Shown here: piece by piece, positions 2,773 to 18,832 of the stretch | Numbering within the stretch: position 1 is the first letter of the stretch | How the letters are laid out: every line of letters starts with the position of its first letter | Virus record (IMG/VR): IMGVR_UViG_3300046675_000310 | Span: 1 to 21,010 of that record | Source of the DNA: a virus | Length of the DNA stretch: 21,010 nucleotides | Direction: 5' to 3' (one strand) | Made by a program: the position numbers and the translations under genes | Notes under the pieces: generated by a model | Database searches by the model: none | Told to the model about the DNA's origin: nothing | What the model saw: only the letters and a program-made list of their open reading frames with translations

Positions 2773-4071
2773 TCAGGCGTGCTCCAGGACCACGGCGCGC
2801 TTGTACAGGGCCGCGTCGCCGGTGGTGGAGTCGGACGGGACGCCGTAGTCGCCGACCCAGGACCACGACGTGGACAGGGTCTGTTGCAGGCGGTCCTGCG
2901 GCGGGCGGACGATCCGTGCGACCTGCACGCCCGGGGCGGCCTCGATCATCGAGATGTCGGGGACGTCCTCGACGCCGCTGCCGCGCAGCAGCTCGCCCAT
3001 GCCCTCGAACGGAGCCGCCACAAGGGCGCCCGCACCGAGCACGATCGGCCGGTGCACGGTCACGTTGCCCGCCGAACCGCCCAGCAGGGTCGGGGCCTCG
3101 ATGTTGCGGACCCAGTCGATGCCGCCGAACCGGCCGATCGACAGATCCGTGTAGATCGGGCTATCCACTCGACCCTGCAACGCCTGCTTGAAGTCCGAGT
3201 CGGAGAACAGTTGCGCCTCGGTGTCCGGGTCGATGTGCGCGACGTAGTAGCCGCCGACCGTGGGCACGTTCATCTTCCGCAGACGGGTGACGCAGGACCG
3301 GAACAGCGCGAACGTCGCCGTGTTGGAGGTGCCCAGGTCGTAGGCCGAGCCGCCGGTCGGCCGCACCGACACGGGCGCGTTCGCCGCCACCACGGTGTCG
3401 CCGGCGACGTCGACGCGGGCGGTGCCCAGCGTCAGCGTGCTGGTGCCGGTGTTAACGCCGGTCACGGTGTTCGCGACACCGGCGACGGTGACGGTGAGCG
3501 GGTTCGACGCGGACACCGCGGTCGGCACACCGTTGACGAGGACGGTCTCGAAACCGTTCGTCGACTGCACGATGATGCTCGTGTCCGAAGACCCGGCCGT
3601 GGTGCACCAGGTCCGGCCGCCCGCGTAGGCCTTAAAAAGCTTGTTCCGGGAGATCTGGTTGATGGACTGGCCGGCGTTGATGCCGAGCGTCTCGACATCG
3701 GCGAGGAACTTCGACGCGAGCGCCATGCTCGAAGTGAGCATGTTCGTGTCGACGGCCTGGCCGTACTGGTCCATCGTCACAGACCACTGCTCGATGCTGT
3801 ACGTCGCAGCCGAAGTGTCCGACCCGGTGATCGCGGTCGTCGCCGGGGCGAGCAGGCCCTTACGGGTGAAGGTCTTGGTGTCGCCGAGCCCGCCCTGCCA
3901 CGGCATCGCATCGGCGATCGCCGGGAAGATGAAGTTCGGCTTGAGGGCTTCCTGGAAGACGCGGTCCAGGATGCCGTTCTGCATCATGGCGCGGATGGCG
4001 GCCGGGACGGTCGACCGCACGTCGTGGCGGTTGAGCCGGAACCACGGCTTGGCAGCCGTCAGTACGGTCAT
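2773..4071 (-). CDS. Major capsid protein, P22 coat / N4-gp56-like HK97 fold (432 aa)
   Basis: This is the main shell protein. Signs of the P22-coat/N4-gp56 group are the segment YSIEQWSVTMDQYGQAVDTN (residues 91-110), a central beta-rich insertion at about 164-238 comparable to an I-domain, the block MNVPTVGGYYVAHIDPD (268-284), and a C-terminal region with RPIVLGAGALVAAPFEGMGELLRG. The N-terminus contains WFRLNRHD at residues 10-17 (bases 4021-4044), shared with the scaffold protein and proposed here as a processing site. The start is an ATG with AGGAG six bases upstream, the Shine-Dalgarno overlapping the stop of the protease gene. The length of 432 residues is normal for the family. Confidence 0.92.
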   Translation of the reverse strand: MTVLTAAKPWFRLNRHDVRSTVPAAIRAMMQNGILDRVFQEALKPNFIFPAIADAMPWQGGLGDTKTFTRKGLLAPATTAITGSDTSAATYSIEQWSVTMDQYGQAVDTNMLTSSMALASKFLADVETLGINAGQSINQISRNKLFKAYAGGRTWCTTAGSSDTSIIVQSTNGFETVLVNGVPTAVSASNPLTVTVAGVANTVTGVNTGTSTLTLGTARVDVAGDTVVAANAPVSVRPTGGSAYDLGTSNTATFALFRSCVTRLRKMNVPTVGGYYVAHIDPDTEAQLFSDSDFKQALQGRVDSPIYTDLSIGRFGGIDWVRNIEAPTLLGGSAGNVTVHRPIVLGAGALVAAPFEGMGELLRGSGVEDVPDISMIEAAPGVQVARIVRPPQDRLQQTLSTSWSWVGDYGVPSDSTTGDAALYKRAVVLEHA

Positions 4072-4074
4072 GGT

Positions 4075-4263
4075 CTACTCCTGTGTGATCGTTACGGACA
4101 CGAGGTCCGGGTGCTGCTGTGCGACCTGTTCAAGGCCCAGCAGTGCGGTTTGGGTGATGGCCGACACCGCCGCGCAGACCCGGCCGTTCTCGGCGTGCTC
4201 CTCGTGACCGTCCACCTCAATAGAGGTGCGGCCGTCGCCCAGATGGGCACGGATACGGATCAC
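4075..4263 (-). CDS. Prp-like cysteine protease, candidate capsid maturation protease (62 aa)
   Basis: The short protein carries the signature of Prp, the ribosomal-processing cysteine protease: a G-H pair (G19, H20) and VCAAVSAITQTALLGLEQ (residues 29-46), where C30 would be the nucleophile and H20 its partner. Prp proteins are usually about 105 to 110 residues, so this is a minimal form. It starts with GTG, overlapping the scaffold stop as GTGA, and ends four bases before the capsid gene, so it sits exactly between scaffold and capsid. In Staphylococcus, Prp trims ribosomal protein L27 and also the capsid and scaffold proteins of phage 80alpha. Here the two neighbours share an N-terminal motif, supporting a head-maturation role. 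Activity of so short a version is not proven. Confidence 0.82.
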   Translation of the reverse strand: MIRIRAHLGDGRTSIEVDGHEEHAENGRVCAAVSAITQTALLGLEQVAQQHPDLVSVTITQE

Positions 4264-4949
4264 GAGCGGATACGGAACCCGGGCGCAATCTGGGCCAGTT
4301 CGGCATCCAGTGCGGCACGGTCGGCGGTGCGGAAATCGGTCGGCGGCTCGGCCGGACGTGCTCCTTGCCCAGGGTCGGGCCGGGGTGCCGGCGGCTTCGG
4401 CGCGGCCGACGGCCTCTTCAGGTGCGGCTTGCGCTCCAGCAGATCGGCGAGGTCCGCCGAGATCGCCTCGGTGTCGATGTCCCCGTCGTCGCTGGTGTAC
4501 TTCGCCAGGTCGAGAAACGCGGCAGCGTCCTCCGGGTCGGCGAACTCGGCGGCAGCAGCCTTGACTTCGGCCTTCACCGCGCGGGCCGTGGCCTTCGCGG
4601 CGGCAGCTTCGAGCCGCTCAGCCTTCGAAGTCGCCTTCTCCAGTTCGGACTTCTGCGAGTCCTCGAACTCGGCGACCTTGCGGGCCAGGTCGTCGGCACG
4701 CTTCTTCTCGGCAGCGGCAGTCTTCCTTGCGGCTGCTCGATCGGCCTTCATCCGGTCCAGGGCGCGCTTCCCCTCGTCGCCGAGCTTGTCAGCGCCTTCC
4801 GGGTCCGGATCGGGCTCAGGGTCTGCCGGGTCGTCCGCCGGGTCCGCGGCGGGTTCCGGGTCGGTTGTTTCGGGGTCGTCGTGACGGTTGAGCTGGAACC
4901 AGCCCGCGCTCTGGGCAGCGGGAAGCCAGCGGTTACGCGTCCTACTCAT
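4260..4949 (-). CDS. Phage capsid scaffolding protein (229 aa)
   Basis: The layout is typical of scaffold proteins: a short N-terminal segment, an acidic Asp/Pro/Glu-rich stretch (about residues 24-55), a long Ala/Lys/Glu coiled coil (about 60-135), and a C-terminal region with a Pro-rich linker and a final helix ending LAQIAPGFRIRS. Residues 17-24 read WFQLNRHD (bases 4878-4901), matching WFRLNRHD of the capsid protein in seven of eight positions. That similarity is unexpected for two unrelated folds and suggests a common protease site. The start is an ATG at 4949 with GGGAG nine bases upstream. The gene directly precedes the Prp-like protease and capsid genes, as scaffold genes usually do. 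Confidence 0.88.
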   Translation of the reverse strand: MSRTRNRWLPAAQSAGWFQLNRHDDPETTDPEPAADPADDPADPEPDPDPEGADKLGDEGKRALDRMKADRAAARKTAAAEKKRADDLARKVAEFEDSQKSELEKATSKAERLEAAAAKATARAVKAEVKAAAAEFADPEDAAAFLDLAKYTSDDGDIDTEAISADLADLLERKPHLKRPSAAPKPPAPRPDPGQGARPAEPPTDFRTADRAALDAELAQIAPGFRIRS

Positions 4950-5015: not shown

Positions 5016-6035
5016 TCAGTCCAGGTAGCCGAAACGCCGGAGCATCGCGATGGCCTCATCGCGGGACTCGGCGAGCTCGAAAATCTGCTCAGGCAGCAAA
5101 CGCGGTGACGTCAGCCGGTACTGCCGCCCGATGTTGGCGGGCACCCGGCCGCGGGCAATGTCCCGGGCCCGCTCTCGCCGGTAGAAATGCCCGCGCGTCG
5201 TGGTTCCCTCGCGGGTTGCTCGCAGCGTCCTGCCGTAGGCGGTTGTGGTGTACATGCCGCGGCGGGCGTTGACGATCTGCCCCATGTCGGCGCCTTCACG
5301 GATCGCGCGAGCACCGGCCGCCGTGAAGACGCGGTCCTGCTCGGCGCGGGACAAGCCGCGGAAGTAGGCGTTCGGATCGATGAAGCCACCACGGTCGTGG
5401 TGCTGGTTGCGGGCGATCAGCGTGGTCGGCAGATGGACGCAGTCGCAGCGCGGATGCCGCTGGAAGCCCTTGTTCCAGCCGTACTCCTTGCCCGCCAAGA
5501 TGATGCACCGTGAGCAGGCCGGCGGCTGCACCACCCGCACGTAGCCCTGGATCGTGCGCTTGCCCGCCATAGAAGCCCCGACGGCCGAGCGGCCGGCCTG
5601 CGCCGTCTCCGATGCCCCCAGTCGAAGCGCTTGGCTCAGGCCCCGCATCAGCGCGTCGTCCGTCGACAAGCCGCCAGCGATGCCCTGCTTCGACGTGATG
5701 ACCGACAACAGCATCAGCGAGTCGAGCGACCGACCGTCAGCCGCCAGGCCCGCAAACGCCTCCGGGCGAACCCGGCCCGCCCTGACCGGGTCCGCACCCT
5801 CGGCATCCACCACCTCATCCACATACTCGTCCGCCGCCCCGGCCGATGACAGCTGGCCGACAGTGATGGCGCGGACGATCCGCGGCCCCACCGAGGCCTC
5901 CCACGACCCCGACAAGTCCCTGCTGTCGAGCTGGCTCCAAAGACGCTGAATCTCGTTCGCCGTAAGCCTTGCGCGGCGCGCCTGCGCGGCCTGGAAGGCC
6001 AGCGCGATCTCCTCAACCGTCCGTGTGGCACGCAC
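5016..6035 (-). CDS. MuF-like minor head morphogenesis protein (339 aa)
   Basis: The gene follows the portal gene by one base and starts with GTG. The N-terminal half is helical. The centre has the diagnostic block PPACSRCIILAGKEYGWNKGFQRHPRCDCVHLP, with C174, C177, H194, C197, C199 and H201 as a possible metal-binding cluster. Blocks of the form 'C..CiilaGk.y.w..gF.rHP.CdC.H.P' mark the MuF/minor capsid proteins of actinophages, which enter the prohead with the portal. The C-terminal part (GRQYRLTSPRLLPEQIFELAESRDEAIAMLRRFGYLD) is basic then helical and has no recognised toxin domain. About 66 bases separate it from the scaffold gene. Confidence 0.87.
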   Translation of the reverse strand: MRATRTVEEIALAFQAAQARRARLTANEIQRLWSQLDSRDLSGSWEASVGPRIVRAITVGQLSSAGAADEYVDEVVDAEGADPVRAGRVRPEAFAGLAADGRSLDSLMLLSVITSKQGIAGGLSTDDALMRGLSQALRLGASETAQAGRSAVGASMAGKRTIQGYVRVVQPPACSRCIILAGKEYGWNKGFQRHPRCDCVHLPTTLIARNQHHDRGGFIDPNAYFRGLSRAEQDRVFTAAGARAIREGADMGQIVNARRGMYTTTAYGRTLRATREGTTTRGHFYRRERARDIARGRVPANIGRQYRLTSPRLLPEQIFELAESRDEAIAMLRRFGYLD

Positions 6036-6036
6036 G

Positions 6037-7461
6037 TCAGGTCACCGGAACGGGCTCAGGATCGGGAGGCATCGGCTCGGCGGGCGGTTTCGGGCCGGCC
6101 TCCAGGGCTGCCAGGTCGCCGCTCATGATGCGCTGCATGGCATCCTGTGCCGCCTGCTCGTCCTGCTCCTCCATGCGCTCGATCTGCGCCTGCGTGTAGC
6201 CCATATCTTCGCGGGTCTGCCGCAGCGGAACGATGTGCGCCGTGAACAGCTTCACCGCGGCGTCCGCCTTCTGCGCCACCGTCGGCGTGGAGGCGTCCTG
6301 CCAGATCGTCTCCAGCGAACGCGCGTCAGGGTTCCAGGCGCCATCCCGGATCCGCATCACCTTGCGGTTGACGCGTTCCCAGGTGCCGCCCGCCCGGCGC
6401 TGCTTGCGCTCGGCCCGCTTGACCAGCCGGGTCTCCGCGCTGCGGATACCGTCGGCACTCGCCGGGTTGTCGGTCGAATGGCCGAGGAAGTGCGGCGGGA
6501 GCCCGGACAGGGAGGCAACCAGCGAGGCCAGCAGTTTGATGGTCTCGTGGAAGTTCGACAGGGATGCCTCAGAGAACTGGACGACGTCCGCCCCGTCCTC
6601 CTTGCGGTTCTTCTCCGTCGCCCACATCCGGCCGATGATCCGGCTGAACGCCGAGACCTTCCGGCCGTTGGCATCGACGAAGTCCTCCTCGCCGAACCCG
6701 AACGCCACCCGGCGCGGGGTGGCGTGGTACTCGGCGGACACCATCATGTCCGTGGCGATCTTGCATGCGGCGTCCGAGATCGGGATCACGTCGGCCAGGT
6801 CACTGACACCGTTCGGCGTCTTCAGGCGCGGACGGTTCGCGAGCACCTCGACCATGACCTCGCCGATGCTGTGCTCATCCCGCTCGTGCTCGGGATCCGG
6901 GATCCATGCGCCCCGCTCCTTCATCCACCAGGACGTCGCGTCCGGCAGATACAGGGTGGCGTGATCAACCTTCCCGTCCTCGGTGTCCTCGCACCAGCGC
7001 TTCACCGCCGCCCGCACCTCGCGGGTCTGCGGATCGAAGTCCGCGTACATGTCGATCGGCGACTCGACAGTGACGAGCGGCGTCGTGTCGTCGTCCAGCC
7101 GGGTGCCGACAACGACGTAGGCGCGGCCCATCACGAGCGAGTCGAGATGCCCCTGCTGGGACTGCTCGTCCATGTCGTTGGCCTGCCAGATCCGCCACAG
7201 CTCGGCGTCCGCTCCCGGCTCACCGGGGAAGCGGAAACCTTCGACATCCAGGCGCTCCTCGACGCTGTCGACGACCAGCCGCGGCCAGTTGACGACCACC
7301 TGCCGCACCGTCTCCTGGAGCTCCCGCTCCAGCTCCGGCGCCATGTACGACAGCGGCTGCTTGCCCTCGTAGTACGAGTTCAGCCGCCTCAGCGCCGGCA
7401 GCTCCTGGTCATGGCAGTGGATCAGATGCTTGAGCCACTGGATATCGGAGCGGTCCACCAC
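6037..7461 (-). CDS. Phage portal protein, SPP1 gp6-like (474 aa)
   Basis: The portal forms the ring at one capsid vertex through which DNA is packaged. The N-terminus with LNSYYEGKQPL, then LELQETVRQVVVNWPRLVVDSVEERLDVEGF-type text, is the classic opening of SPP1-like portals of actinophages ('r...yYeG...l...a....vnwp...vdsv.erL.veGFr'). Further signs are WRIWQANDMDEQSQQGHLDSLVMGRAYVVVG and LSGLPPHFLGHSTDNPASADGIRSAETRLV in the second half. The length is standard. The start is a GTG (two GTG codons in tandem, 7461 and 7458) with GAGGGG upstream. It lies between the large terminase and MuF genes, as expected. Confidence 0.93.
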   Translation of the reverse strand: MVDRSDIQWLKHLIHCHDQELPALRRLNSYYEGKQPLSYMAPELERELQETVRQVVVNWPRLVVDSVEERLDVEGFRFPGEPGADAELWRIWQANDMDEQSQQGHLDSLVMGRAYVVVGTRLDDDTTPLVTVESPIDMYADFDPQTREVRAAVKRWCEDTEDGKVDHATLYLPDATSWWMKERGAWIPDPEHERDEHSIGEVMVEVLANRPRLKTPNGVSDLADVIPISDAACKIATDMMVSAEYHATPRRVAFGFGEEDFVDANGRKVSAFSRIIGRMWATEKNRKEDGADVVQFSEASLSNFHETIKLLASLVASLSGLPPHFLGHSTDNPASADGIRSAETRLVKRAERKQRRAGGTWERVNRKVMRIRDGAWNPDARSLETIWQDASTPTVAQKADAAVKLFTAHIVPLRQTREDMGYTQAQIERMEEQDEQAAQDAMQRIMSGDLAALEAGPKPPAEPMPPDPEPVPVT

Positions 7462-7471
7462 TCACCGCCCC

Positions 7472-9106
7472 TCATTGCAGGATCAGCATCTTCGACTTCT
7501 TCTTCGGACGGGCCTGCCCTGCAGCCACGGCGTCACTCGCTGCCTCGTGAGCAAGAATCGACACCACGGCCAGGTCGATCTTTTGGTGGGCGGTGGCCTT
7601 GCGCAGGACGTACCGGTTCGACGTGCGGGCCGCCTTCCGGGCGTTGCGCACATGGATGGACGTGGCCTCACAGCCGTCATGCCGGAACGTGCTGTCCTTC
7701 TTGGTGACGTCCGTGAGCAGTTGCTCGCACGCGGCGTGCATCTGCACGACGCGGTAGGTCTGCCACTCGGTGACGCGCTTCTCGCCATGCCGGGCCTGCC
7801 AGGCGGCAACCTCGCTGGTCCAGTACGGCGGGTCGCAGTACATGCGCACCACGTCGTAGCGCCGCATCAGATCGTCCACCGCGGCGTCGACCTCGAGCCG
7901 CGGTACCTGGCCCTCCCACTCGGCGGGATCCCAGATGCACGGCCGTCGGTCCGGCCCGTAGACAGGCGTGAACTGGTAGCCGTCCAGGGTCTCGGCGCGG
8001 ATGCCGGTCCAGTCGTCGACGTCGCTGCCGTCAAAGCCCAGCACGATCCGCGCGCCTTCCGGCACCGCTTCCAGCGCTGCACGGGCATCCCAGCGGTCGT
8101 GCTGAAGCCAGGTGCCCATACCGGCCGTGATGCGGTTGCCGTGGAAGCGCTCCGCTTCCGCGGGCTCCTTCTCGAGCAGCTCGGACGCCTCGCCCTCGAT
8201 GGCGTCGAGGTCAATGTGCGTACTGCCCTGGTAGACCGCGGCATGAATCTTCCGGCGGTCGGCCTTCTTGGCGTAGTCCAGATCCTTGGGCGGCAGCCGG
8301 TGGAATCGGTACACGTCCTGGACCTTGGTCTCTGCCGTCTTCTGCGCGACCGAATTCTCGGTTGGGTCCCAGGCATTCGTCTGCTCGAGGGAGCGGCCGG
8401 ACATGCCGGCGAGGCCGCGGCGTTGGGTGGTCGCGACCTTGGTCATGCCGTTGCCGTCGGTCCAGATGCCCGTCTCATCCTGAGGAGCAAAGGTGATCGG
8501 GTTGCCCAGACGGCTCTGGGCGCTCGAGGTGACGACGTCGATGCGGCCGTCGTTGGGCAGCCGGATGAACTGCTCGCCGACCTTCATCACTTCAGCGAGA
8601 GGCCCGTTGCGGATCATCGCCTGCAGCGGCCGATAGGTGTTGTCGGTCTGGTCCTCGGACGTCGCCGTGATCTGGATCAGCGGTTGGTTCCACGGCCGGC
8701 CCATCGGCTCGCCCGGCTCGTACTCGTACACCCAGCCGCAGCCACACCGGTGGTCTGAGCATCGATAGCGCTCCCCGCCCTGCGCCCAGCCGTTGAACAG
8801 GACCGGCCCGACAGCCTCGGCGGCCACAACGCTGGCAGCCCAGGGCCCTTTCCCAGATTTTTGAGGAGCCACCGCCTGCGCCCGCCGGTAGTGGAACGCG
8901 GTCGACAGTTGGCCGAGCTGGGCGGTCGGCTTGATCCTGTACAGGTTGGCTGTGATCCGCAGCTGCCAGTCGTACATCTGGAACGGCCGCGGCGTGCTGT
9001 CCAGGCCGCCGACCGACTGCAACAGGCAGTGCCGGGCGATCCAGTCGGGGACGACGAACAGGGTAGGGAAGTCCAGGGACCAGGTCCCGTCGTCAGCCGC
9101 TACCAC
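7472..9106 (-). CDS. Phage terminase large subunit (544 aa)
   Basis: This is the packaging motor ATPase and nuclease. The N-terminal ATPase has the adenine-contact region MYDWQLRI (44-51), a Walker A variant AVAPQKSGKGPW (78-89) and a Walker B-like TFAPQDETGIW (205-215, D210-E211). The C-terminal nuclease shows GFDGSDVDD (357-365), a conserved acid in YCDPPYW (423-429) and KIDLAVVSILAHE (509-521), supplying the usual three aspartates. Between Walker A and B lies CSDHRCGCGW (116-125), a small Cys/His cluster that could bind zinc, which is unusual for terminases. The GTG start at 9106 overlaps the small terminase gene by 14 bases, so translation is coupled. Confidence 0.93.
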   Translation of the reverse strand: MVAADDGTWSLDFPTLFVVPDWIARHCLLQSVGGLDSTPRPFQMYDWQLRITANLYRIKPTAQLGQLSTAFHYRRAQAVAPQKSGKGPWAASVVAAEAVGPVLFNGWAQGGERYRCSDHRCGCGWVYEYEPGEPMGRPWNQPLIQITATSEDQTDNTYRPLQAMIRNGPLAEVMKVGEQFIRLPNDGRIDVVTSSAQSRLGNPITFAPQDETGIWTDGNGMTKVATTQRRGLAGMSGRSLEQTNAWDPTENSVAQKTAETKVQDVYRFHRLPPKDLDYAKKADRRKIHAAVYQGSTHIDLDAIEGEASELLEKEPAEAERFHGNRITAGMGTWLQHDRWDARAALEAVPEGARIVLGFDGSDVDDWTGIRAETLDGYQFTPVYGPDRRPCIWDPAEWEGQVPRLEVDAAVDDLMRRYDVVRMYCDPPYWTSEVAAWQARHGEKRVTEWQTYRVVQMHAACEQLLTDVTKKDSTFRHDGCEATSIHVRNARKAARTSNRYVLRKATAHQKIDLAVVSILAHEAASDAVAAGQARPKKKSKMLILQ

Positions 9107-15458: not shown

Positions 15459-17522
15459 CTACTTCCCGGCGGCTTCGGCGAGCTGCTCGCGGGTGTAGCC
15501 GTTCGGGTTCGCCATGCCGTCGAGCGGCCCGAGCTTGCGGGTGACACCCGCGCCGACCTCTCGAAGCCGGGCCTGCAGATCCGCCTCGGCCAGCCCCGTG
15601 TACCGGTCGGGCCGGTAGGCGATCAGCAGCTCCAGGAGCCGCCTGGTCCGAGCCCGGTCGACACCATCGGCGTCGAGGACCGTGAGGCAGTCGGCCAGCA
15701 GCTCGTTGCGCGCTGCCGCCTTCAGGTCCGCCTTGCCGTAATCAGCGGCGAACCCGGTCAAGGTTCCGGCGTCGATGCGCAACTGTCGGCCGCGCAGGCA
15801 GATCTCCCGGAACTCGGGGATCGTCATGAAGTCGGTCCGCAGGGTGACGTGGCCTTCCTCGCCGCCCTGATCCAGGACGACGACGCCCTTCTGTGAGTCG
15901 AGCAGCATGTGTGGTGCGGCGCCCGCGGCGACGGCGTCGTCACCGAGGACCATCCGGGAACTGGCCGCGCCCTTCACGCGGAAGCAGGCCCGCTTACGGC
16001 AGACCTCGCGCAGCATGGTCGGCACACTGCTGGAGTCGGGGCGCTGGCTGATGAACAGGCCCATGCCGCCCGCGTACCGGCTGACGCGCACGAACCGGGC
16101 CATGGTCTCGACGAGGACGTCCTTACCGCTGCGCCCTCGGTCCTTGCTGTCGGGATCGTCGTCCGTCTTGATCTTCATCATGGCGGCGGCGTCCAGCAGT
16201 TCCTGTAGCTCGTCCACGACCAGCAGGGTCAGGCCGCGCTTCCACTCCTTGGCCAGCTCCGGGGTGATCTTGCCCTCGGGGCAGCGCTCCGGCTGCTCCT
16301 CGGAGAGCTGCTCCAGGCGCTCGCCGATCTGCTGCATGTCAGCGATCAGCGAGTTCAGCAGGTCGAGGAAGGCGAGGATCTTCGAGGGGGTGTTGCCGGC
16401 CACGTAGGAGTCGGCGAACTGCTTGGTGGCGGCCCAGTCCGGGCCAGCCTTTCCGGTGGCGACGTGGACAGTCATGTACGGGTCGAGGGCAGCGGTCGCG
16501 GCGACGAGGCGAGCCAGGAACGACTTGCCGTAGTCGGGCAGGCCGCCCAGCAGGATGGAGCACCACGCCATCTCCAGGTCGTGGCGGGTGCCGCGCGGGT
16601 CGGTGCCCAGCGGGACACCGTTCTGCCAGAAGTCCCACCGTTCCTGGGTGAGGAGCGGAGAGGGCACCTTCTTGGAGCCGTAGGGGTTGGCCGCGTTGGC
16701 CACCCACAGCACGAAGCGTCCCTCGTGGCCGTCTTCAGAAGCGTCGGCATGCATCTCGACCTGGGACTTCTTCACCTTCAGTGCCGAGGCCAGCTCTTCA
16801 GCCTTGGAGATGGCGGACGATGCCTTCATGCCGCCGGGCAGTTCGACGGTGGCCGTCCAGCCGGGGCCAGCGGGCCGGATGATGCCGACCAGGTGGGTCT
16901 CCTCGCGTTGGGCCTCGCTGATGATCCCCGCTTTGACGAGAGCGGTGACCAGGTCGGCTTCGCCGCGGATCTGGGCAGCGTCTCGCGGAATCGAGCCGGC
17001 CGGGGTGCCGTTCAGGTCCAGTCCTCCAGCCTCGGACCGGTCGCGGCCATGGAAGGCGCCGAGCCCCCACGCGCCGAGCCCGGTGAGCAGGTCAATCCAG
17101 AGGCTTCCGGTGACGACGCCGAAGCTCACCCCGCCAGCGACGGCCCCAGCTACGCCGGCAGTCTTGCTGGCGAACGCTTTCCGGTGCTGCTTGTACTCGG
17201 CTCGCAGATCGTCGCGCCGGTCGCCGAGCTGCTTCTCCGCGTGGACGTCGCCATCCGCCTCGCGCAGGGCCCGATCGACGGTGGCGATTCGCTGCGGATA
17301 GTCGTCGCGGAAGCGTTCGACCCAGCGGTGGCCGAGCTGCCGGTAGCCGCGGAAGGTGTGCGGCAGCAGGGCGACCTGGGCGATGCGGTTGGTGCGCTCG
17401 GCGAGCGTCCGCAACGGCTTGGCCGGCTTCTCGGCGGCGGCCTCGTCCTTGAAGAGGGGCTCCTCGGGGACGTCTTGGACGAGGGTCAACAGGACGCGCT
17501 CGTCAGTCAGCGGGGTGGCCAT
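15459..17522 (-). CDS. traB: FtsK/SpoIIIE-type DNA translocase, TraB-like (687 aa)
   Basis: This is a hexameric-type dsDNA motor of the FtsK/HerA class, as used by Streptomyces plasmids and AICEs to move double-stranded DNA between hyphae. Residues 1-120 are charged and soluble; two membrane segments lie at about 122-157 (VAGAVAGGVSFGVV and IDLLTGLGAWGLGAF). The ATPase has Walker A GLPDYGKS (327-334) and Walker B LTLLVVDE (431-438), followed by VSRYAGGMGLFISQRPDS. The C-terminal part (RTRRLLELLIAYRPDRYTGLAEADLQARL) could be the winged helix that reads the transfer site. The ATG at 17522 follows the SpdB-like gene by 11 bases; a longer frame to 18452 only overlaps that gene out of frame. A phage segregation motor is the alternative. 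The gene symbol is by family resemblance. Confidence 0.88.
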   Translation of the reverse strand: MATPLTDERVLLTLVQDVPEEPLFKDEAAAEKPAKPLRTLAERTNRIAQVALLPHTFRGYRQLGHRWVERFRDDYPQRIATVDRALREADGDVHAEKQLGDRRDDLRAEYKQHRKAFASKTAGVAGAVAGGVSFGVVTGSLWIDLLTGLGAWGLGAFHGRDRSEAGGLDLNGTPAGSIPRDAAQIRGEADLVTALVKAGIISEAQREETHLVGIIRPAGPGWTATVELPGGMKASSAISKAEELASALKVKKSQVEMHADASEDGHEGRFVLWVANAANPYGSKKVPSPLLTQERWDFWQNGVPLGTDPRGTRHDLEMAWCSILLGGLPDYGKSFLARLVAATAALDPYMTVHVATGKAGPDWAATKQFADSYVAGNTPSKILAFLDLLNSLIADMQQIGERLEQLSEEQPERCPEGKITPELAKEWKRGLTLLVVDELQELLDAAAMMKIKTDDDPDSKDRGRSGKDVLVETMARFVRVSRYAGGMGLFISQRPDSSSVPTMLREVCRKRACFRVKGAASSRMVLGDDAVAAGAAPHMLLDSQKGVVVLDQGGEEGHVTLRTDFMTIPEFREICLRGRQLRIDAGTLTGFAADYGKADLKAAARNELLADCLTVLDADGVDRARTRRLLELLIAYRPDRYTGLAEADLQARLREVGAGVTRKLGPLDGMANPNGYTREQLAEAAGK

Positions 17523-17533
17523 GGCGGGAGCCC

Positions 17534-18832
17534 TCAGTCCTTCTTCTCGGTGGTCTGCTCGACGCGTGCCTGACTGCGCGCGAGGGGATGGAGCGGAGCG
17601 GTCTCGCCGGCGCGCCGGACGGGCGGGGTGCCGCCGTTGTTGCGACGTCCGTCGGGGGCGTTCGGGTCGCGCTTCTCGCGGGGACCCTTTTGGGATTCGA
17701 TCAGCGACAACGACCCCAGAACGGGGGCGTCGGTGACGGTCCGCATGTGGGCCTGCGCAGCCCGCGACTGGGCTTCGATTTCGGCGCGGATTCCGACCGT
17801 CTTGCAGCCCGTCACGAGGAACCAGGCCTCGGCCCAAATCTGCTCCGTGACGTGCTGCGAACCGCGTGCGGCGCGGAGGGCGTTCGCCACCTTCCACACG
17901 TCGTCGTGGTTGGCCTTGCGGTCGTCGTCGCGGCGCTGCTGCTCCTCGTTGGCGCGGGCCTGCGCGGCAGCCTTCTCGGCGGCAGCCTTCGCGTCGGCGG
18001 CCAGCCGGTCGGCGTGCGCCTTCTCCCTCGCGGCGGTCAGTTCCTCGTCGGCCTTCTCGATGGCCCGCCGCTCCCGCCAGGACGGGATTCCGTCGGCCTT
18101 CTGGGCGATGCCGTGCTCGTAGGCCATGAGGACGATCGGCCCTCCGAGCGAAGCGATGGCGCCGATGAGGCCGGCGTTGAAACCGATCCGCTCGTCGGAC
18201 AGGCCGCCGTACAGGTTGATCCCTGCTGCGATGACCGCGCCGAGCATGATGCCGATCCGGTAGGGGGCGACGTCCCGACGGTGGGCGACCGCCCAGGTGG
18301 CGCCGAAAGCCAGGACGAGGGCCAGGCCTTCCAGTAGGACGGGGGCCGCGATGAGGAACTTGCGCGCCGGGTCCCAGAAGTGGATCAGCTGCACCGGTGC
18401 CGCGATGACCAGGCCGACCGCGTAGATACTGCGGGCACCCCACTTCCACCACTGCTCAGATCGCTGCTGCTCGGCGACCCGCTTCGCCTCGGCGGCCTCC
18501 ACCTCGGCGGCAGCCTTGCTCTCCTTCTCCTCTTCCGCGTTGGACTTGGTGGTCTCGGCGGCCTTCTTCGCGAGGTACGCCCGGTGGTCGGCCTTCTCCT
18601 TCTCCAGGCGCATGTCGGCGCGCTCGTTGGCGATGCGCAACTTCTCGGCTTCCTCGGCCGCCTTGATCTTCTCGGCTTCAGCCTTGCCCGCCGCTTCGGT
18701 GCGCAGGGCGTCGGCTTCGGCGGCGGCTCGGGTACGGATCGCCTCCGCCTCGGCCAGGGCGCGCGGGTCCAACCGCGGCTCGGGCGAGGTCTTCGGCGTG
18801 CCGTTGACCTTCTCGACGGACGTGGCGGTCAC
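17534..18832 (-). CDS. SpdB-like transfer/spread membrane protein with coiled coils (432 aa)
   Basis: The protein has a long Ala/Glu/Lys/Arg coiled coil (about residues 25-125), four predicted membrane helices (about 132-150, 158-181, 190-209 and 216-238), then a second charged coiled coil (about 250-310) and a polar tail. This layout, length and position just before a TraB-like gene match the SpdB/DUF2637 proteins of AICEs, which support plasmid spread between hyphal compartments and may form a pore or ring with TraB. The GTG at 18832 gives MTATSVEKVNG; the Shine-Dalgarno AAAGGA is 11 bases away, rather far. The exact mechanism of the family is not established. Confidence 0.82.
   Translation of the reverse strand: MTATSVEKVNGTPKTSPEPRLDPRALAEAEAIRTRAAAEADALRTEAAGKAEAEKIKAAEEAEKLRIANERADMRLEKEKADHRAYLAKKAAETTKSNAEEEKESKAAAEVEAAEAKRVAEQQRSEQWWKWGARSIYAVGLVIAAPVQLIHFWDPARKFLIAAPVLLEGLALVLAFGATWAVAHRRDVAPYRIGIMLGAVIAAGINLYGGLSDERIGFNAGLIGAIASLGGPIVLMAYEHGIAQKADGIPSWRERRAIEKADEELTAAREKAHADRLAADAKAAAEKAAAQARANEEQQRRDDDRKANHDDVWKVANALRAARGSQHVTEQIWAEAWFLVTGCKTVGIRAEIEAQSRAAQAHMRTVTDAPVLGSLSLIESQKGPREKRDPNAPDGRRNNGGTPPVRRAGETAPLHPLARSQARVEQTTEKKD

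Follow-up and report, generated by a model that had tools for sequence, protein, structure and literature searches.

A compact phage-encoded Prp-like protease and a shared N-terminal tag on the scaffold and capsid proteins of actinobacterial phages

Between the genes for the scaffolding protein and the major capsid protein (MCP) of a phage known from a 21-kb virus record (IMGVR_UViG_3300046675_000310, analysed in full over its 21,010 nucleotides and referred to here as the window) lies a gene encoding a 62 amino acid homologue of the cysteine protease Prp. We infer, with a probability of roughly 0.85, that this protein is a compact Prp, encoded by the phage itself and shifted in specificity, which trims both the capsid and the scaffold protein at a shared N-terminal tag. 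Prp-type head processing was previously known from a host enzyme in Staphylococcus; what would be new here is a self-sufficient and compact version of the process that makes use of a different recognition tag. The head module of the window lies on the minus strand and comprises, in order, the terminase small and large subunits, an SPP1-like portal, a VG15-like minor head protein, the scaffold, the Prp homologue and the MCP. The features that matter for the argument are as follows.

2773..4071, minus strand: MCP, HK97 fold, 432 aa, predicted substrate (phrog_1357, E 7e-26)
4021..4044, minus strand: MCP tag W10-F-R-L-N-R-H16-D17, predicted cut between H16 and D17 (tag in 101 loci)
4075..4263, minus strand: compact Prp-like cysteine protease, 62 aa (PF04327, above cut-off)
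4174..4176, minus strand: predicted catalytic Cys30 codon (aligns with C34 of Staphylococcus aureus Prp, SaPrp; invariant)
4204..4206, minus strand: predicted catalytic His20 codon (aligns with SaPrp H22; invariant)
4260..4949, minus strand: scaffolding protein, 229 aa, predicted substrate (phrog_4708, E 4e-24)
4878..4901, minus strand: scaffold tag W17-F-Q-L-N-R-H23-D24, predicted cut between H23 and D24 (tag in every one of the 91 loci whose scaffold N-terminus is intact)
5016..6035, minus strand: VG15-like minor head protein (PF25310, E 2.5e-6; phrog_1522 'head maturation protease', E 4e-69)
6037..7461, minus strand: portal protein, SPP1-like (PF05133, E 1e-54)
7472..9106, minus strand: terminase large subunit (phrog_19179, E 5e-146)

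The scaffold also matches PF06810 (E 1e-5), below the cut-off for that family. The Prp gene has a GTG start within a 4-bp overlap (GTGA) with the scaffold stop codon, and the sequence AGGAG is found at its end, ahead of the MCP start. Upstream of the terminase genes, positions 15459-18452 and 17534-18832 of the minus strand hold part of a TraB/FtsK-like translocase (assigned through a weak plasmid_TraB match that scores well below its cut-off), as well as another large ORF whose product seems to have membrane segments. No TraB is listed in the record of the Streptomyces phage Kromp, a relative, and the window is possibly a phage-plasmid or integrative-element mix.

The first-pass annotation of the window, made from the sequence alone, had drawn attention to a WFxLNRHD motif in two head proteins that are otherwise unrelated, and to its absence from all other proteins of the window; each of these observations stands. 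WFQLNRHD (scaffold residues 17-24) and WFRLNRHD (MCP residues 10-17) are identical at seven of eight positions, and the two 45 amino acid N-termini reach 47 as their highest 8-mer BLOSUM62 score, compared with a maximum of 35 in 20,000 shuffles of both. Outside the motif, blastp of scaffold against MCP gave no alignment better than E 2. The pattern F-x-[LIVM]-x-R-[HFY] is confined to the scaffold and MCP across the window and the complete Kromp genome, save for one antisense hit in Kromp, and a search of the two for a third tagged protein found none.

Relatives of the locus were gathered from viral contigs (80 loci) and from named genomes (21 loci, including Streptomyces, Nonomuraea, Actinoallomurus, Sphaerimonospora, Glycomyces, Kineosporia and others), which together with Kromp and the window make 103 loci, some of the viral-contig and named-genome loci being the same prophage. 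For the most part, a second broad scan with the MCP gave the same closest 80 loci again. Kromp shares its gene order and its tags with the window, and its gene 6, the product of which is 81% identical to the window Prp, is recorded only as 'protease', with no mention of a substrate or tag in the record. In 91 of the 103 loci Prp is accompanied by matching tags on the two proteins; in the other 12, among them a Kineosporia locus (L102), contig ends cut off the upstream genes. The co-occurrence of protease and tag in related phages, which had been proposed at first pass as a check, is therefore seen in each of the 91 loci where the two could be observed. These 91 represent 69 distinct tag pairs and are not independent tests, because co-occurrence within a single syntenic lineage is largely a matter of vertical inheritance. 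At one locus (L030) the scaffold region, positions 1078-2000, has a split reading frame with the tag in a different frame from the rest, possibly the result of a sequencing error.

In a comparison of 68 distinct MCP and 76 distinct scaffold tag segments, which were selected by a pattern requiring F and R and agree with unfiltered listings, F and R are invariant, L is almost always present and H is found in 139 of 144 segments, with F replacing it in the remaining 5; D, A, E or N follows. The N of LNRHD is variable (N, D, T, S, A, G and H all occur). Because F, L, R and H are conserved and the N is not, the conserved tag is, on these alignments, F-x-L-x-R-H-(D/A), usually preceded by W, and N forms no part of it. 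Numbered from a cut after His, P6, P4, P2 and P1 are nearly invariant in both of these non-homologous proteins; P5 and P3 are free in the scaffolds, and the leaders vary in both sequence and length (3 to 31 amino acids from the nearest Met). In the other plus-strand frames of the loci, 656,751 residues in all, the pattern F-x-[LIV]-x-R-[HF]-[DNEA] has a single occurrence. The tryptophan is located at P7 in both proteins in 84 loci and at P8 in both proteins in five (two from Nonomuraea, one from Sphaerimonospora and two contigs), with a single discordant locus and a single scaffold lacking W. A parallel shift of this kind in two unrelated proteins points to one reader of the tag, and the five shifted loci may stem from one ancestral event. 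The AlphaFold2 model of the MCP is an HK97-fold capsid that matches phage capsid structures; residues 1-18, which include the tag, have pLDDT values below 50, and the first helix begins at residue 18.

What might the reader of the tag be? The 62 amino acid protein matches PF04327 with E 3e-9 and 37.4 bits (curated cut-off 27) and, when aligned with 64 relatives, has invariant G19, H20 and C30 and a nearly invariant G27 in the GH...(V/I)CA context, bearing out the Prp signature (H20 and C30) noted at first pass. The S34 position, equivalent to Ser38 in the Cys helix of SaPrp, is occupied by Ser in 51 and by Thr in 18 of 69 distinct sequences, and dN was lower than dS in seven of seven comparisons of the gene, these being rough estimates for so short a sequence. 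Relative to canonical phage Prps the protein lacks ~41 internal residues: it aligns end-to-end with a full-length phage Prp (L352) across a 41-residue gap (E 2e-9, a two-sequence E-value). No counterpart was found for Asp31 of the SaPrp L2 loop, the loop being two residues shorter and reading G27-R28-V29-C30. The AlphaFold2 monomer model (pLDDT 90) contains only two strands (residues 3-8 and 13-18) and one long helix (residues 24-50). Foldseek with this model gave no significant match and no Prp structure among its matches, VIA-align placed Streptococcus mutans Prp (2g0i) first but weakly (Z 4.0, rmsd 2.7, 56 residues aligned), and scores against the NCBIfam Prp equivalogs (NF011126-NF011133) were 23.6 bits or less against cut-offs of 122-225, below all of them. 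The profile match, the catalytic residues and the alignment across the deletion lead us to regard the protein as a Prp homologue; it lacks two canonical features of family C108 (Asp31 and the full fold) and scores below the cut-offs of the NCBIfam equivalogs. Its best placement is in a compact branch of PF04327 rather than among the canonical Prps, and it probably works like them.

No second source of the enzyme is apparent in the hosts. Each of 17 host genomes contains exactly one PF04327 match, in all 17 cases inside the phage locus, and ribosomal protein L27 begins MAHKKG in these genomes, with no extension. A chromosomal Prp or a long L27 in the hosts was considered and ruled out, there being none in the 17 genomes. 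More widely, two of 396 Actinomycetota genomes have a PF04327 match: one is a host genome of the locus set, and in the other the match is weak, under cut-off and spans a stop codon. To judge from these genomes, the actinomycete host neither needs nor supplies Prp, and thus the phage brings its own.

Phages that lack the protease provide a natural control. In 80 loci with MCP relatives (phiKX1 and its kin, ~32-39% identical) there is no Prp and no tag. The MCPs in question begin M-[AGSP]-[IV]-x-[ND]-F/L-P (with one GTG start, and S in place of N in a few) and align without gaps, with their first Met opposite D17 of the window MCP, the very residue that the predicted cut after His16 would expose. 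On the scaffold side, the Streptomyces phages Dubu and phiSASD1 encode homologous proteins (E 9e-26 and 1e-20; same PHROG) and likewise have neither Prp nor tag. In both substrate families, therefore, the tag goes with the protease; a motif kept by relatives that lack the protease, which the first-pass annotation said would count against its proposal, was not encountered in relatives of either substrate.

That the tag tracks Prp also bears on a second candidate protease, the VG15-like protein at 5016-6035, the phrog_1522 relative of which is annotated in Kromp as a capsid maturation protease. Were this protein to do the cutting, the protease annotations in Kromp and in PHROGs would be accounted for; its curated Pfam match, however, is to VG15, with none to a peptidase family, and gene 5 of phage Isolde has the same annotation and the same place in a phage without the tag. 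We consider this very improbable indeed.

Rather more needs to be said about cutting as opposed to binding. The tag could be a docking or assembly signal that joins scaffold and capsid, or recruits a chaperone, with the Prp-like protein binding it without cleavage. In Staphylococcus phage 80alpha, cleavage of the capsid protein (CP) or scaffold protein (SP) is dispensable but an intact SP N-terminus is essential for assembly (PMC5744158), and the loss of Asp31, which is essential in SaPrp (PMC9405229), together with part of the fold could have turned the window protein into an inactive binder. The missing Asp31 and ~41 residues of canonical fold do indeed sit awkwardly with catalysis. Set against this, the active-site His, Cys and Ser/Thr are conserved throughout, the Prp-less MCPs start at the predicted cut and the homologous scaffolds of Dubu and phiSASD1 do without the tag, so that binding alone strikes us as improbable. 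The conserved residues, the low dN and the start of the Prp-less capsids argue for an active protease.

If both head proteins are cut, where is the scissile bond likely to be? In the SaPrp-L27 complex, L4 and L6 of L27 (P6 and P4) lie at the dimer interface, the P1 Phe is stacked against His22, Gly29 and Asp31 are bonded to the P3 Gln, and P1' must be small (PMC9405229). Placing F-x-L-x-R-H↓D without gaps on L27 L-N-L-Q-F-F↓A (the arrow marks the cut) brings F and L to P6 and P4 and His (or Phe) to P1. The register F(P6)-x-L(P4)-x-R(P2)-H(P1)↓D/A(P1') is the better fit, since it agrees with the substrate bound in the crystal complex of S. aureus Prp. The likeness to the staphylococcal K-L-N element put forward by the first-pass annotation does not survive this comparison: the LN of the window tag is P4-P3, whereas that of K-L-N is P6-P5, and an equation of the N of LNRHD with that of KLNLQ was rejected because the former is not conserved. 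MCP length variation occurs directly after H (RH-D, RHA-G, RHAVG), the pattern expected for a cut at H. Asp31 and the substrate P3 Gln are both absent in the actinobacterial lineage; this is a single joint change, in keeping with the crystal contact, and not a statistical covariation.

Comparison with known systems puts these differences in perspective. S. aureus Prp (MEROPS C108; PDB 7KLD, 4PEO) shares with the window protein PF04327 homology, the Cys-His dyad, the Gly before His and the Ser in the Cys helix, and on 80alpha it acts on an N-terminal tag common to capsid and scaffold with hydrophobic P6/P4 and aromatic P1 residues, as we predict here. It is, however, host-encoded, 106 amino acids long and also processes L27, with the tag LxLNLQxF↓A, whereas the window Prp is phage-encoded, 62 amino acids long and without Asp31, its tag is FxLxRH↓D/A and host L27 has no extension. 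Cp-1 capsid protease, the other member of MEROPS clan CR, as described where it is cited in PMC9405229, is a phage cysteine protease that removes a capsid N-terminal extension; that description, with an extension of ~40 residues unlike the short tag here, sets it apart.

Phages of Firmicute type encode Prps of their own. Several (e.g. L229, L233, L241 and L279) have a full-length Prp of ~95-110 amino acids, as against 62 here, beside a scaffold and MCP that both carry an [ND]LQxFA tag, and at least 14 of the 80 loci kept from a pattern scan have two or more tagged proteins near Prp; the conservation of Asp in that scan is by construction, because the scan pattern demanded it. The scaffold-position protein of L265 reads WFNLQFF↓A, close to WFRLNRH↓D. 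Others (L336-L349 and L357) encode compact Prps of ~63-80 amino acids with the same ~41-residue internal deletion as the window Prp, aligning end-to-end with the full-length L352 protein across one 41-residue gap (32% identity, two-sequence E-value 4e-14). Their tags (WLFRLQRF↓N, FDLQRF↓N, FDIQKF↓A) have, in the case of FRLQRF↓N and FDLQRF↓N, the same P2 Arg as here; Asp31 is kept and P3 Gln mostly so, unlike the window lineage, which has neither, and their MCPs are of A118 type with no detectable similarity to the window MCP. These Firmicute-type phages with compact Prps provide intermediates (F-x-L-Q-R-F↓N).

Within the cleavage model, Prp might instead cut in or next to the tag at a bond other than H-D, for example after R or D. 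The P1' residue is Asp in most sequences, larger than the Ala or Ser usual for Prp and so a point against a cut after His, and the residue after D is fairly conserved in the scaffolds. The MCP length variation falls directly after H, however, the sole substitute for H is F, which is what Prp substrates usually have at P1, and the Firmicute-type intermediates read RF↓N. Another bond thus seems somewhat unlikely, and cleavage directly after His is the placement that we favour with reasonable, though not high, confidence.

Taken together, trimming by Prp would proceed as follows. The Prp-type cysteine protease (His20/Cys30), active and made from the scaffold-Prp-capsid operon, would bind (W)-F-x-L-x-R-H-(D/A) while the scaffold and MCP are freshly synthesised, in the flexible N-terminus of each. 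The F and L residues would occupy the P6 and P4 pockets, and the cut would fall after His, between H23 and D24 in the scaffold and H16 and D17 in the MCP. This would remove a non-conserved leader and leave the capsid with the native start of its protease-less relatives. Before its removal the tag would probably coordinate folding or assembly of scaffold and MCP, as proposed for 80alpha; because 80alpha capsid trimming is dispensable and the scaffold leader is needed (PMC5744158), the role may lie in the tag at this stage. Catalysis, the exact bond, the timing and this early role are the steps that we infer. Trimming 'during maturation', as first suggested, is unsupported, the 80alpha proteins being already cleaved in procapsids (PMC5744158); the broader proposal of a minimal, element-encoded Prp that trims both head proteins with a new specificity finds support in the comparative evidence.

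In the literature that was searched, neither the F-x-L-x-R-H tag nor a Prp encoded by actinobacterial phages was named in any paper, and the review consulted on Prp makes no mention of actinobacterial Prps. At about even odds, in our estimation, a sequence-specific protease of only 62 residues has lost a large internal part of Prp along with the Asp31 contact and, in concert with two unrelated substrates, has exchanged the recognition code LxNLQxF↓A for FxLxRH↓D. If so, it would rank among the smallest dedicated proteases known and would document how the specificity of such an enzyme is rewritten in nature. Phages of this lineage carry their own compact Prp, with a different tag, into hosts without the enzyme. 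That Asp31 and P3 Gln were lost together makes a specific structural prediction, and Kromp, growing on laboratory Streptomyces (S. coelicolor or S. lividans), offers a cultivable system in which to ask what phages gain by tagging and trimming the scaffold as well as the capsid, and how a two-substrate protease changes specificity. A very small tag-specific protease might also be of practical use.

Three further observations concern tags elsewhere. In a Kineosporia locus (L102) the Prp (positions 107-328) is divergent with longer loops, and the MCP start reads RAAVASHD rather than WFRLDRHD; with no clear MCP tag, and with the scaffold off the contig, this locus neither supports nor refutes the proposal, and it may represent a further specificity shift. 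In three Firmicute-type phages (L218, L229 and L255) an additional protein of ~175 amino acids with an NLQxFA-type start, perhaps the major tail protein, is encoded 3.5-3.9 kb from Prp. Finally, the MCP of a Streptomyces scabiei prophage (L098, positions ~5925-6030) has two tags in tandem (WFRLDRHDGLRTLIPSPAAARPWFDLGRHD).
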